Both the position numbers and the translations under genes were made by a program. From Eggerthellales bacterium (GTDB lineage Bacteria; Actinomycetota; Coriobacteriia; Coriobacteriales; Eggerthellaceae): a stretch of 37,071 nucleotides of DNA. The stretch covers positions 1 to 37,071 of the forward strand of contig JAQXTF010000079.1 of the NCBI GenBank assembly GCA_029219345.1. Reading direction: 5' to 3'. Numbering within the stretch: the stretch's first letter is position 1; the number at the start of each line of letters is the position of its first letter. The notes under the pieces are model-generated. The model worked only from the letters and a program-made list of their open reading frames with translations, ran no database searches and was not told the DNA's origin. This document shows positions 3,729 to 21,989 of the stretch, piece by piece.

Positions 3729-4916
3729 TTATTTCTGAAGTGCGACAACGCCAGGCAGCTGCTCGCCCTGGACCAGCTCCATGGAAGCGCCACCACCCGT
3801 GGAAATGAAGGTCATCTGATCGGCCAGATCAAACTTGTTCACTGCAGCTACGCTATCGCCGCCGCCGATGATGGTATCGGCTTCCTTGTTGGCGGCAACG
3901 GCCAGAGCAACCTCTTTGGTGCCAGCCTCAAAAGCGGCCATCTCAAAGACGCCCATGGGGCCATTCCAGAACACGGTCTTTGCACCCGCAATAGCCTCGG
4001 CATAAATCTTGGCGGTTTCAGGGCCCACATCAAGGCCCATCATGTCTTCGGGAATCTCATCAACAGAGGTGATCTTAGTAGCAGCATCCTCGGCAAACTT
4101 GTCAGCGCACACAACATCAACGGGAAGGAGCAGAGAAACACCGGCAGCTTCGGCCTTCTTTAGCATCTCGCCAGCGCGCTCCACCCAATCTTCTTCCTTC
4201 AAAGAGGTGCCCACAGCCTTGCCCTGAGCCATAAGAAAGGTAAAGCACATGCCGCCACCAATGATCAGAGTGTCGCACTTGCTAATAAGGGCGTCGATAA
4301 CCTTGATTTTATCGGAAACCTTGGAGCCGCCCAGAATAGCCACGAAGGGACGCTTGGGCTCATCCAGCATACCCGTCAAGGTATTCACCTCTTTGGACAT
4401 GAGGAAGCCAGCATATGCGGGCAGGAAAGCGGCGATACCAGCCGTTGAAGCATGAGCGCGATGAGCAGCGCCGAAGGCATCGTTAACGTATTCGTCAGCC
4501 AGGGCAGCAAGCTCCTTGCAAAACTCTTCGTTGTTCTTCTTTTCGCGCTTGTCAAAACGCAGGTTCTCCAGCAAAACAATTTGACCAGGCTCCATAGCAG
4601 CAATCTTTGCCTGAGCGTCCTCGCCTACCGTATCGGTTGCAAAAACAACAGGAGCATCAACCATGGTTGCCAGATACTTTGCCACAGGTGCCAAAGAGTA
4701 CGCTTCTTCATAGCCTTCACCCTTGGGACGACCAAGGTGACTCATAAGGATGACCTTGGCGCCAGCCTGAAGCAGATAGTTAATGGTGGGAAGAGCAGCG
4801 CGAATACGCGTGTCGTCGGTTACCACGCCATCCTTCAGGGGCACGTTGAAGTCAACGCGAACGATGACGCGCTTGCCAGCAGGCTGCATAGATTCAATAG
4901 TCTGAATTTCTGCCAT
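3729..4916 (-). CDS. pgk: Phosphoglycerate kinase
   Basis: Transfers the acyl phosphate of 1,3-bisphosphoglycerate to ADP. The 395-residue length is standard. Visible signatures are [11 protein letters not shown] near residue 20 (substrate-binding Asp and Asn), SHLGRPKG near residue 60, and the nucleotide-binding GGGDSVAAV towards the C-terminus. A near-perfect AGGAGG lies 6 nt before the ATG. It follows gap after a 60-nt spacer that contains a GC-rich hairpin, which may set different mRNA levels for the two genes. Confidence 0.97.
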
Positions 4917-18064: not shown

Positions 18065-19018
18065 TTACAAAAGCGGTCCGTATGTTCCATCGGGATAGCG
18101 AGAAATAAGGCCCGCATCCTGCGCTTCCTCAAGGCGAACGGCCGCCCATGCCGAAGGGTTCTCGTCGCCGCAAAGCTGGGCCGCCAAGGCGTAAATGGCC
18201 TCGGTATCCAAGGGCTCCGAAATAACTGCCCTAATCAAGGGGTCACCATACAACGGCGAGCTTTTGCGTTCCTCCCTCTCCAGCTGGAACAGCCCTCCCA
18301 AGGTATCCTCCAAAGGACGGGGATACATTGAACCGATGATTTCCTCAAAAGACTCATCATCCACAATGGGAATCGCACCTTGATACAACAGGCGATTGGC
18401 CCCTCGAGAGTTGGGAGCCGTAATGGAGCCAGGCACAACTAGCACTTCTTTCCCCAGCTGAAGAGCCTCATCCGCTGTAGAAAAAGTACCCGATGGGAGC
18501 CCCGCTTCCACGATAAGCGTCGCTTTTGAGAGTGCTGCAATTATGCGATTGCGCGCACGAAAAGTATACGGCTTAGCGGGAAAGCTCCAGGGATGCTCCG
18601 ACACAATGGCTCCGCCGCTGTTTACGATATCTTGAAAGAGCTTGAAGTTTTCTGCAGGATATATGTGATCGCAACCGCCTCCAAGCACCGCCACCGTACA
18701 GCCCTTTTCCGCCAGGGCGCCTTTATGAGCTGCACTATCGCAGCCCTTTGCTCCACCTGAGACAATAGTTATACCCCGCTTTGCAGCGGCGGAAGCAAAA
18801 CGCTGGGCGCAGCCCCTGCCATAGGGCGTCGCTCGACGCGCTCCCACAATCGAAAGGCCGCTGCGCAGACAATGAGGATTGCCAATTACATAGAGCATCT
18901 CAGGAGGAATCTGCAGTTCCCGCAAGGAATCTGGATACAAAGGCGAATTCATATCAATCTCAAAACGCGGCCCTTCAATGTAAGGTCCTCTGGATGCCTT
19001 ATCCGGATAATCTTCCAT
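18065..19018 (-). CDS. dprA: DNA-processing protein DprA
   Basis: Binds incoming single-stranded DNA and loads RecA in natural transformation. The 317-residue protein has the extended Rossmann domain: SIVGARRATPYG, VSGGAKGCDSAAHKGAL and LGGGCDHIYPAEN, then RNRIIAALSKATLIVEA, and GSITAPNSRGANRLLYQGA. A C-terminal winged-helix-like domain (about 255-317) is present, while the N-terminal SAM domain is short or missing. The ATG directly abuts the comM stop. Together with comM it suggests DNA uptake or at least DNA handling capacity, but dprA also occurs in bacteria not known to be transformable. Confidence 0.95.
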   Translation of the reverse strand: MEDYPDKASRGPYIEGPRFEIDMNSPLYPDSLRELQIPPEMLYVIGNPHCLRSGLSIVGARRATPYGRGCAQRFASAAAKRGITIVSGGAKGCDSAAHKGALAEKGCTVAVLGGGCDHIYPAENFKLFQDIVNSGGAIVSEHPWSFPAKPYTFRARNRIIAALSKATLIVEAGLPSGTFSTADEALQLGKEVLVVPGSITAPNSRGANRLLYQGAIPIVDDESFEEIIGSMYPRPLEDTLGGLFQLEREERKSSPLYGDPLIRAVISEPLDTEAIYALAAQLCGDENPSAWAAVRLEEAQDAGLISRYPDGTYGPLL

Positions 19019-20521
19019 CTACATCACTCCTCCCCTCTCGGATTGTTCAAGACGAAGCCCCAACGCTTCGCAAAGGTGCGTTTTGTTTACCTGATCGCTT
19101 TGGGCGATATCAGCAATGGTGCGCGCCACTTGCAACGTGCGGACAATGGCTCTGCCGCTGAGCTTTCGCTTCTCGGCGACTTTTTCGAAATATGCCCGTC
19201 CAGCATCATCAAGACGGCATGCTTCTATGATTGATTTCGTCGCCGTTCCTGGCTGCTCATAGCGAGACAGCCGCCACGACCGATACTCCTGCCCGGCCAT
19301 CACGCCTTGACGCAAAGTTTCAGAAGAAGTTCCCGTTCCCGCTTTGAGCACATCGGCCGATTTCATACGCCCCACATTGATGCGCATATCAATACGATCC
19401 AAAACAGGGCCTCCAATACGCGATTGGTACGTGTTTATCTGCACCGGCGTGCAGTGACAGGGAGTCTCCTTGTCACCAAAGTACCCGCAGGGGCACGGAT
19501 TGGCAGATGCAATGAGAGAAAACTGAGCGGGCATGGTAATGGCAGATTCAGCGCGGACCAAAGTAACCTGGCCCGATTCCATGGGCTGTCGCAAGCTTTG
19601 CAGCACGCTCGGCTTAAATTCGGGCAGCTCATCCAGATACAGCACCCCCTTGTGAGCAAGGGTGATTTCACCAGGACGGATAGGCGTTCCACCGCCAATC
19701 AAACCCGCGGCTGAAGCCGAATGATGGGGCTGTCTAAAAGGCCTATGACCTGTCATGATGCTCTCGGCGTTCAAACCCGCTACAGAATAAATGGTTGCCA
19801 CCTCAAGCATTTCCTCATCAGTCAAGGGAGCCAAAATGCTTGGAAGCCTTGAAGCCAACATGGTTTTGCCCGATCCGGGCGGCCCCACCATAAGTACGCC
19901 ATGATTTCCCGTTGCTGCAATTTGCAAAGCACGCTTCGCGTGATCATGCCCCGCAATATCGGCAAAATCCAGAAGAGCACTCTCAGCGGCTTTGGGATTT
20001 GGCTTGATACCTTCAAAGTTTCCCATGCGTAAAGCAGACAGACGGGCAATGAGGCGAATAGAATCACAGAATCCCTTAATGCGCAGCTCTTCAGAATAAG
20101 CGCAGGTCAACGACATGCCTTGCTTAGTGGCACAGCGGGCGTATGCGAGAAGTCCGGGAACAGGCTTCACGCAGCCATCCAAAGACAGCTCGCCTACGAA
20201 CAGTGAGCCGCGCGCGTGAATCTTGTCAATTTGTCCTGATGCAGCAAGAATGCCCAGAGCTATGGGCAGATCAAAGCCTGAACCGCGCTTTTTCAGCGAC
20301 CCTGGTGCTAGATTTACCACGATTTTGTCGCGCGGCATATGAAAACCGCTGCTTCGTAAGGCTGCCTTCACGCGTTCGCGGGCTTCTTGAATTGCCGCAT
20401 CGGCCATGCCCACGATAGTAAAACCTGGGGATCCCTGAGAGATAATGACCTCCACCTCAACAGGTATGGCATCAACACCCATCAAAGTGGCAGACTGAAC
20501 GGTACATTGCGTGAGGTTCAT
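19019..20521 (-). CDS. comM: ComM-like Mg-chelatase/AAA+ ATPase (YifB family)
   Basis: ComM is a hexameric AAA+ helicase that promotes branch migration during transformation. The 500-residue protein has an N-terminal Lon-protease-like domain (about 1-170, with SPGFTIVGMADAAIQEARERV), Walker A GPPGSGKT at 213-220, Walker B VLYLDELP at 293-300, and a zinc-like cluster CPCGYFG...CHC near 340-355. The C-terminal Mg-chelatase domain contains GPVLDRIDMRI and LSGRAIVRTLQVARTIADI. It starts 2 nt after yraN and ends flush with dprA, so the three are one translation-coupled unit. Confidence 0.95.
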   Translation of the reverse strand: MNLTQCTVQSATLMGVDAIPVEVEVIISQGSPGFTIVGMADAAIQEARERVKAALRSSGFHMPRDKIVVNLAPGSLKKRGSGFDLPIALGILAASGQIDKIHARGSLFVGELSLDGCVKPVPGLLAYARCATKQGMSLTCAYSEELRIKGFCDSIRLIARLSALRMGNFEGIKPNPKAAESALLDFADIAGHDHAKRALQIAATGNHGVLMVGPPGSGKTMLASRLPSILAPLTDEEMLEVATIYSVAGLNAESIMTGHRPFRQPHHSASAAGLIGGGTPIRPGEITLAHKGVLYLDELPEFKPSVLQSLRQPMESGQVTLVRAESAITMPAQFSLIASANPCPCGYFGDKETPCHCTPVQINTYQSRIGGPVLDRIDMRINVGRMKSADVLKAGTGTSSETLRQGVMAGQEYRSWRLSRYEQPGTATKSIIEACRLDDAGRAYFEKVAEKRKLSGRAIVRTLQVARTIADIAQSDQVNKTHLCEALGLRLEQSERGGVM

Positions 20522-20523
20522 GT

Positions 20524-20970
20524 CTACTCGGTTCCGAAGGCATTAATGTGGTGACGCAAATTCGCCTTGTTGTTGCCAAGGACCAAAATGGCGATGATAT
20601 CAAACCTGAAGCGCATATCCACGTATTCGGCATCGCGCAGGTAATACGCCGAAATTCGCTCGTAACGCTCGCGTTTTTCCTTGGTTACCGCTTCTTCAGG
20701 GTATCCTTTATCAATGTTGGAGCGGGTTTTAACCTCCACGAACACCAGCACGTCGCCATCCAGGGCAATGATGTCGGCTTCGCCCGCAGTACAACGCCAA
20801 TTGCGCTCCACAATCTGATACCCATGACGCTCCAAGAAGCGCACGGCAGCCTCCTCGCCCTTTTTACCCAGGTCGAGATTGGGATATTCGCTGTACGTCT
20901 TTACTGAGTATTCGGCCGCTTCGCCATGATTTTGGACTTGATTGGTTTCTTCATTGATGTAGTCGTCCAT
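20524..20970 (-). CDS. yraN: YraN/UPF0102 nuclease-like protein
   Basis: UPF0102 proteins have a Holliday-junction-resolvase/endonuclease fold; their cellular role is not settled. GKKGEEAAVRFLERHGY starts the conserved core, and GEADIIALDGDVLVFVEVKTR contains the catalytic-type acidic residues and lysine. The chosen ATG has AAAGGAG 7 nt before it and gives 148 residues, about 30 more than usual because of an acidic N-terminal extension. It is the first gene of yraN-comM-dprA-trmFO-xerC and lies directly downstream of the six-copy repeat array. Confidence 0.9.
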   Translation of the reverse strand: MDDYINEETNQVQNHGEAAEYSVKTYSEYPNLDLGKKGEEAAVRFLERHGYQIVERNWRCTAGEADIIALDGDVLVFVEVKTRSNIDKGYPEEAVTKEKRERYERISAYYLRDAEYVDMRFRFDIIAILVLGNNKANLRHHINAFGTE

Positions 20971-20993
20971 AGTCTCTCCTTTCGACGCGAAAG

Positions 20994-21094
20994 AGAATAC
21001 GGAACGCATCTATCAAAAAGTTATCAAAACACGAGCAGAAGCTATCAAAACGCTATCACTGCGTGCACAAAAAGTTATCAAAAAGCTATCAAAC
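20994..21094 (-). promoter_or_regulatory. yraN operon control region with six phased TATCAAAA repeats
   Basis: Six copies of an 11-mer close to AGYTATCAAAA lie head to tail on the plus strand. TATC begins at 21011, 21022, 21043, 21054, 21076 and 21087, so steps are 11, 21, 11, 22 and 11 bp: three close pairs, all on one face of the helix. The fourth copy is degenerate (TATCACTG). A minus-strand TATTCT (20994-20999) stands 11 bp beyond the nearest repeat with no -35 box, as in promoters where an activator replaces it. Paired 11-bp direct repeats are how OmpR/PhoB-family regulators bind; which protein binds here is unknown. Confidence 0.6.
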
Positions 21095-21106
21095 CCCGCA
21101 CAGGGC

Positions 21107-21937
21107 CTAAAAAAGCGTCTCCTGCATAAACGATTGGCAGAAGCTCACGCGATGAAGAGGCGTAAGACCCCTTTCCTTGATGGCTTCAATATGGGAGGCA
21201 CTGGCATATCCCTTGCACTGATCCCAGCCATATTCCGGATATTGGGAAGAAAGCTCAACCATAAGCGTATCTCGCTCAACTTTAGCAACAACGCTGGCCG
21301 CAGCGATGCTGGCGCACTTTGCATCACCCTTCACAATGTTTCTCTCACGCTTATCGAAATGAAGAGGGTTGCCATCAAGAAGAATCAAATCAACGGCAAA
21401 GCCCTGATCTTCAATGGCCTTGACGGCCTTTCGGAAAGCAGCAATCAGCGAAGCAGTCATTCCATGGGCATCAATGTATGAGGGCTCAATGTATTGCACC
21501 GTCCACGCCAAAGCAACTTCTTTGATTTCCTTGGCAATCTCTTCGCGTTGCTCGGGAGAAAGCTGCTTAGAGTCGTTGAGAAGAGCGATACGGGGCTCTT
21601 CCGGCAATACCACGGCACCGACCGCCAAAGGACCGGCCACCGAGCCTCTGCCCACTTCATCAAGGCCTACTACTACCGAAGCACCTGATTGGTTGGCAAA
21701 GTCTTTTTGGAAGGTGTACAGCCCTTCAAGACGGGCTTGTTCCGCCGTTTCTTTAGCAATACGTTTACGGGCAGCGTTCAAAGCAGAAATAACGCCTTTG
21801 CGCGTATCAGAAGCAAGCGAGCGCTCAAGAGAAGGCAACGTGGAGGCATTCGCGCATGCCAGCTTAGCGCGAATCTCTTCAACCGTCTGAGCATGATTAG
21901 TGGCGCTTTCACCAACGCCGCGAATTGCACGTGCCAT
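21107..21937 (-). CDS. rnhB: Ribonuclease HII
   Basis: Cuts RNA in RNA-DNA hybrids and removes single ribonucleotides from DNA. GLDEVGRGSVAGPL supplies Asp93 and Glu94; LNDSKQLS, DAHGMTASLIAAFRKAV and the downstream LILLDGNPL/KGDAKCASIAAASVVAKV segments complete the active site and the family fold. The protein has 276 residues, with an 85-residue helical N-terminal extension longer than in E. coli but comparable with the B. subtilis enzyme. GGAG precedes the chosen ATG. The start lies just behind the rplS terminator, so it may rely on readthrough. The lepB gene usually found between rplS and rnhB in actinobacteria is absent. Confidence 0.95.
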   Translation of the reverse strand: MARAIRGVGESATNHAQTVEEIRAKLACANASTLPSLERSLASDTRKGVISALNAARKRIAKETAEQARLEGLYTFQKDFANQSGASVVVGLDEVGRGSVAGPLAVGAVVLPEEPRIALLNDSKQLSPEQREEIAKEIKEVALAWTVQYIEPSYIDAHGMTASLIAAFRKAVKAIEDQGFAVDLILLDGNPLHFDKRERNIVKGDAKCASIAAASVVAKVERDTLMVELSSQYPEYGWDQCKGYASASHIEAIKERGLTPLHRVSFCQSFMQETLF

Positions 21938-21956
21938 TTCTCTCTCCAACCCGAAT

Positions 21957-21989
21957 AAAAAACAATGCCCGCACAATGTGCGGGCATTG
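21957..21989 (-). terminator. Intrinsic terminator of rplS
   Basis: A perfect 12-bp stem CAATGCCCGCAC/GTGCGGGCATTG with a 3-nt loop is followed by six T residues on the minus strand, 20 nt before the rnhB ATG. Confidence 0.92.

Follow-up and report, generated by a model that had tools for sequence, protein, structure and literature searches.

The window, that is, the whole stretch of 37,071 nucleotides analysed here from an Eggerthellales bacterium of the family Eggerthellaceae, carries in front of the yraN-comM-dprA operon an array of short, regularly spaced direct repeats. The question raised by this locus is whether the repeats serve the one operon or belong to a wider control system and, in the latter case, what kind of protein could read them. 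The class Coriobacteriia comprises gut bacteria, drug-metabolising ones among them, and little is known of how competence is controlled in the Actinomycetota. The searchable literature gave no account of natural transformation or competence, or of how it is controlled, for Coriobacteriia or Eggerthella, paywalled papers and preprints lying outside that search.

The array and the promoter of yraN-comM-dprA

Direct reading of the sequence places the TATC starts at 21011, 21022, 21043, 21054, 21076 and 21087, exactly as the initial annotation had reported them. Counted from the promoter-proximal unit, the steps between units are 11, 21, 11, 22 and 11 nt, the step after the second unit being 21 rather than 22, which leaves a one-base hinge in the array. 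Spacing of this kind had been claimed to be hard to obtain by chance, and indeed TATCA-N6-TATCA occurs three times in the window, always inside the array, while not a single such pair appeared in 100 dinucleotide shuffles. At the end of each unit stands AAAA or AAAAA, again in 11-bp phase, and a further, weaker unit occupies one of the gaps in phase with the others (Table 1). No inverted repeats or hairpins were found within the array, which lies entirely in the 97-136 bp gap between rnhB and yraN, both on the minus strand. The identity of rnhB is based on its ORF sequence and on the rnhB-yraN-comM synteny seen in relatives. The promoter proposed earlier, with a TATTCT -10 box, an 11-nt gap to the nearest repeat and no -35, was confirmed in all three respects, no -35 hexamer being present ahead of the yraN -10.

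Table 1. Features of the yraN upstream region (positions in the window) and array-headed loci elsewhere in the same genome, whose genes were identified by Pfam and NCBIfam
Feature	Position or locus	Strand	Remarks
dprA (DNA_processg_A, PF02481)	18065..19018	-	
comM (YifB-family Mg-chelatase-like AAA ATPase, TIGR00368)	19019..20521	-	
yraN (UPF0102, PF02021)	20524..20970	-	first operon gene; start ATG 20970
Ribosome-binding site of yraN, GGAGAG	20974..20979	-	sequence inspection
-10 box TATTCT	20994..20999	-	10 nt after TTTGATAG; N10 spacing in 13/15 sibling promoters
Unit 1, promoter-proximal, CTATCAAAAAG	21010..21020	+	gene strand CTTTTTGATAG; 11 nt from -10
Unit 2, TTATCAAAACA	21021..21031	+	
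Hinge, 10 nt	21032..21041		step across 21 nt vs 22, likewise in most other arrays of the genome
Unit 3, CTATCAAAACG	21042..21052	+	
Unit 4, CTATCACTGCG	21053..21063	+	right half poor
Weak alternate unit, GTGCACAAAAA	21063..21073	+	in phase; GTGCACAAAAA, GTCCACAAAAA or GTACTCAAAAA in other arrays
Unit 5, TTATCAAAAAG	21075..21085	+	
Unit 6, CTATCAAACCC	21086..21096	+	promoter-distal array end
rnhB, upstream neighbour	21107..21976	-	stop codon ~10 bp past distal array end
ComEA (SLBB+HHH)-ComEC/Rec2-HolA	L025		ComEC over TIGR00361 cut-off
ComF	L031		
CpaB/RcpC, CpaE-like ATPase, CpaF	L034		Tad/Flp pilus
A24 prepilin peptidase	L029		unlinked to pilus operon
S6-SSB (rpsF-ssb)	L028		followed by ORFs reading as rpsR, rplI, dnaB
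RecA-RecX	L035		array upstream of apparent SOS-type promoter
dnaN	L038		next gene recF; read by eye
Two REP-type Y1_Tnp (HUH transposase-like) genes	L024, L036		
Six paralogs	L026, L027, L030, L032, L033, L037		protein start with VLSHKSAL-like motif

Sibling arrays and the genes behind them

The array is not peculiar to yraN-comM-dprA. A DNA search of the same genome with the array led to about 15 further places, giving 16 arrays with that of the window included, and YTATCAAANNNYTATCA occurs 15 times in this genome against 0 for its reversed control. Besides yraN-comM-dprA, 15 further units of the same genome are headed by an array. One element recurs in these 15 loci, GYTATCAAAAA alternating with GTGCACAAAAA (or GTCCACAAAAA or GTACTCAAAAA) at an 11-bp pitch, the one-base-short hinge being usual among them and the number of units per array ranging across the genome from about 3 to more than 9.

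The distance to the promoter is as regular as the pitch. On the gene strand the arrays end in TTTTGATAG-N10-TATNNT, and 14 of the 16 terminate in a promoter of the TTTGATAG-N10-TATNNT type. Exact N10 spacing was found in 13 of the 15 promoters scored (the scored match at L030 being a chance one, further upstream), and the letters of the -10 are T/C-A-T-N-N-T. Moreover, TTTGATAR-N10-YANNNT has 15 matches in 1.94 Mb, compared with 2 in the control, and all 15 lie at or in arrays: 13 are promoters, and of the remaining two, one falls inside the array of recA and the other is an additional, internal match in that of comEA. Since the combined pattern is nearly confined to arrays, the regulon would be nearly closed at about 16 units. 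At four genes the start codon comes 6-7 nt past the -10, as leaderless mRNAs would show.

As regards the genes, an array precedes essentially every DNA-uptake operon found in this genome, and operons of uptake or recombination account for 8 of the 16 array-headed units, for which chance would give a P of about 1e-10 to 1e-13, taking 12-20 operons of this sort in ~900 transcription units as the assumed totals. Counting against this, housekeeping operons with holA, rplI, dnaB and dnaN also stand behind arrays. The earlier idea of a DNA-uptake regulon in Coriobacteriia is nonetheless well supported, both by the presence of an array at essentially all these operons and by the recurrence of the architecture in other genera. 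The array is accordingly read here, with a probability of roughly 0.8, as the operator of an activator-dependent promoter belonging to a natural-competence regulon of DNA uptake and recombination. An operator so defined names probable competence genes, points to a promoter for use in a reporter and supplies bait DNA for the regulator.

Several of the array-headed loci have features of their own. The six-paralog family shows an invariant D..W..EY(D)..H..D pattern, has weak matches to the DUF559 and MTES_1575 nuclease models and gave marginal matches only when compared with solved structures; on the strength of the pattern and the two weak model matches it is regarded as a putative PD-(D/E)XK/Vsr-like nuclease family. 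Its members carry an N-terminal SHxSA motif, and the family was found in 18 of 20 relatives (L155-L184), several of the matches there with an in-frame stop. The two Y1_Tnp HUH proteins behind arrays (L024:2547-3332 and L036:554-1339) have weak C-terminal HTH matches; no array was detected close to a third copy (L032:7773-8522). At recA (L035, ~4377-4470) the array lies upstream of a palindrome of SOS/LexA-type appearance, AACATATGTT, and of an ordinary -35/-10 promoter. In the gap between dnaA and dnaN (L038:4254-4560), probably the oriC region, an array with the -10 CATACT would drive dnaN-recF.

Pitch and unit sequence in other Coriobacteriia

The exact unit gave one stray match only among the genera sampled elsewhere in the family, and two matches, both in one genome, in other families; likewise, YTATCAAANNNYTATCA was absent or nearly so across 40 other genomes. 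A reading of this absence as non-conservation was considered and dropped once the orthologous upstream regions were read. In two genomes of another family (f13; G057 and G066), GGTAAGA-N4 triplets precede comEA, yraN-comM and cpaB, and their last unit stands 16 nt away from a -10. In Gordonibacter, GGCAAGGT-N8-TATNNT stands ahead of yraN and rpsF and a promoter of the same type (GTGCAAGGT..TATGAT) ahead of comEA, the upstream regions of yraN and comEA giving autocorrelation peaks at 11, 22 and 33. In the complete genome of another Eggerthellaceae genus (G003) the unit is CGCTKGATYC, and pairs of GCTKGA at 11-bp pitch number 83, in about 20 arrays, compared with 1 in the control. These arrays head comEA-comEC, recA, yraN-comM, comF, rpsF-ssb and cpaB, as well as three DUF559-like genes and one short DUF559 gene, and thiI adjoins comEA-comEC in G003 as it does in the genome of the window. 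At the DUF559-type genes of both G003 and Gordonibacter, array and gene have opposite orientations, which means that a simple fixed -35 geometry is not universal. The upstream regions of 11 DUF559-like homologs from other genera also show peaks at lags 11, 22 and 33.

The pitch was also examined independently of any motif, by taking the strongest repeat lag in about 1.2 kb ending within yraN from 110 Coriobacteriia genomes. Lag 11 was the best in 39 of 64 genomes of four families (Eggerthellaceae, or f1, together with f13, f4 and f10), in 26 of them at z>3. Among the 106 control windows it was the best in 13 (2 at z>3), and among 192 block shuffles in 20. The corresponding binomial P, 3e-23 at 10%, is indicative only and overstated, since the genomes are kin. 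In the other 25 of the 64 genomes lag 11 was not the best, and the remaining families are near background (10 of 46), f11, f12 and f16 being among those close to chance. Conservation of the spacing in relatives had been proposed as the point on which the initial annotation should stand or fall: pitch and position are indeed kept, while the unit sequence is not.

These comparisons incline us, by a modest degree, towards a wider statement. Across several Coriobacteriia families, with Gordonibacter among the human-gut genera concerned, one head-to-tail multimerising activator would run the competence regulon, its 11-bp unit being rewritten genus by genus at many promoters with pitch, geometry and targets held fixed, and would also drive the DUF559/Vsr-like putative nucleases, the HUH transposase-like proteins and also, in the case of G003, toxin-antitoxin modules. 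A unit that turns over at many promoters while the pitch holds provides a natural experiment on the address code of a regulon and how it changes.

Minor observations concern the same relatives. Five array-headed ORFs of G003 (L326, L333, L334, L335 and L342) resemble, by eye, toxin-antitoxin modules of HigBA-like, AbiE-like and BrnT-like kinds. In G066 and G057, the prepilin peptidase gene contains, in the 5' part of its coding region and on the opposite strand, triple GGTAAGA repeats (L099:1501-1529 and L100:1501-1529), which may be a coincidence or an internal operator. Further GGTAAGA arrays (L098:1501-1529 and L103:1501-1529) are flanked on one side by a tRNA-Gly/tRNA-Cys pair and on the other by a divergent gene whose TPR-like product has about 459 aa.

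Mechanism, alternatives and known systems

Most likely, the 11-bp units would be occupied head-to-tail by a sequence-specific activator that forms a cooperative multimer along one DNA face. This reading draws on the fixed distance to a -10 that lacks a -35, on the phasing of the units along the same face, on a unit number that varies between arrays and on the genes that the arrays have in common. With the proximal unit ~11 nt upstream of the TATNNT -10, at the place of the -35 hexamer, the bound activator would be expected to substitute for the -35 contact and to recruit RNA polymerase to yraN-comM-dprA and, simultaneously, to the other 15 array-headed units, which would thus be induced jointly in competence. 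Either orientation of the array may work, since some arrays of relatives run opposite to the gene.

As for the kind of activator, the initial annotation favoured an OmpR/PhoB-family response regulator on tandem PhoB-type half-sites. The geometry fits, in that an 11-bp direct-repeat pitch is found at the -35 position with the last unit ~11 nt from a -10 without -35, and GGTAAGA-N4 resembles the GTAA-core sites of the OmpR family, such as those of CpxR, WalR, MtrA and PhoB. Over the Pfam cut-off, 5 OmpR-type domains were counted in the genome, two with orthologs in G057/G066. A comparison covering these two of the five genes (orthologs L104/L105/L106 and L111/L113) showed recognition helices that are all but identical (KTVDTHIKRLRDK; ERT[IV]DSHVKNLRAK), while the operator reads TTTTTGATAGC in this genome and GGTAAGANNNN in G057/G066. 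Helices that stay constant while the operators differ argue against those two orthologs, and no array was found adjoining any OmpR gene. As in a Pho box, head-to-tail direct repeats with an 11-bp pitch stand in place of the -35, at roughly 10-11 bp from the -10; unlike a Pho box, the arrays reach 9 or more units, contain a one-base hinge and are reversible in orientation among relatives, and no co-varying OmpR regulator was found here. The OmpR/PhoB assignment fits in geometry only and is a tentative one. A small BldC-like protein, or another forming head-to-tail filaments, appears rather unlikely. BldC binds as head-to-tail multimers to variable numbers of direct repeats in either orientation to the gene (PMC5859096), and the unit number in this genome (about 3 to more than 9) and the reversed arrays of relatives are in line with such behaviour. 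Its Streptomyces operators, however, are 9-bp repeats, AATTXXXX(C) (PMC5859096), whereas the pitch here is 11 bp, so that the likeness lies in the variable number of repeats and in head-to-tail binding, which is known for BldC and proposed for the arrays. Furthermore, no HTH_17 domain over the Pfam cut-off is present in this genome, three weak matches only being seen; this search for BldC-like regulators covered the HTH_17 family. No convincing regulator candidate was found among the OmpR family and HTH_17/BldC.

Explanations that dispense with such an activator were also weighed. Intrinsic curvature from phased A-tracts, with no specific protein, would account for units ending in AAAA or AAAAA at an 11-bp phase in this genome, but at the same operons the units of G003, Gordonibacter and G066 are GC-rich or devoid of A-tracts, and specific letters (TATC, GTGCAC) recur within one genome, which makes curvature very unlikely. 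Still less probable is that the units are DnaA boxes coordinating the genes with replication, the alternative named by the initial annotation. TTATCAAAA does agree at 7 of 9 positions with TTATCCACA, and an array is present in the dnaA-dnaN gap. Other lineages, however, have GGTAAGA, GCAAGGTT, CTTAATC or GCTKGATYC as units at the corresponding operons, none of them DnaA-like, and the arrays hold a fixed distance to the -10 with no clustering at an origin. Since the unit letters vary by lineage and the DnaA box is near-universal, DnaA is disfavoured; the arrays do not show the match to TTATCCACA and the conservation between species that would mark a DnaA box cluster. Hardly credible, finally, is a repeat with no regulatory role, mobile or REP/BIME-like, that REP-associated tyrosine transposases would have spread: two REP-type (Y1_Tnp) genes do carry an array, yet there is no inverted repeat or hairpin, and hence none of the palindromic units of REP/BIME, the copies occur at promoters only with fixed spacing to the -10, and the unit sequences at orthologous positions in other genera are unrelated.

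The preferred reading, an activator-bound array, has parallels in known competence systems. In Bacillus (ComK) and Streptococcus (SigX/ComX), one cis element heads unlinked operons for uptake, ssb, recA, comF and dprA. The arrangement found here is the same in having one cis element for unlinked uptake operons, whose joint induction would be possible. It differs in that only a Tad/Flp pilus cluster was seen, not comG, in that the unit letters vary between genera and, going by their descriptions, in having an 11-bp head-to-tail array at the -35 in place of the AT-boxes of ComK or the cin-box of SigX. What is proposed here is a competence regulon whose operator consists of tandem repeats, and the surprise is that the unit changes genus by genus at many promoters while its pitch is kept. 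Among actinobacteria, Micrococcus luteus is competent by experiment, its competence being dependent on a Flp pilus (PMC4322843, PMC8467076), and it shares with the present genome a Tad/Flp pilus and comEA-comEC, together with a prepilin peptidase gene that is not linked to the tad genes. In the parts of these two reports on which we draw, no regulatory cascade is identified and no shared operator is found for M. luteus (PMC4322843, PMC8467076), whereas here a shared array joins the uptake loci to one another and to comF, comM-dprA, ssb and recA.
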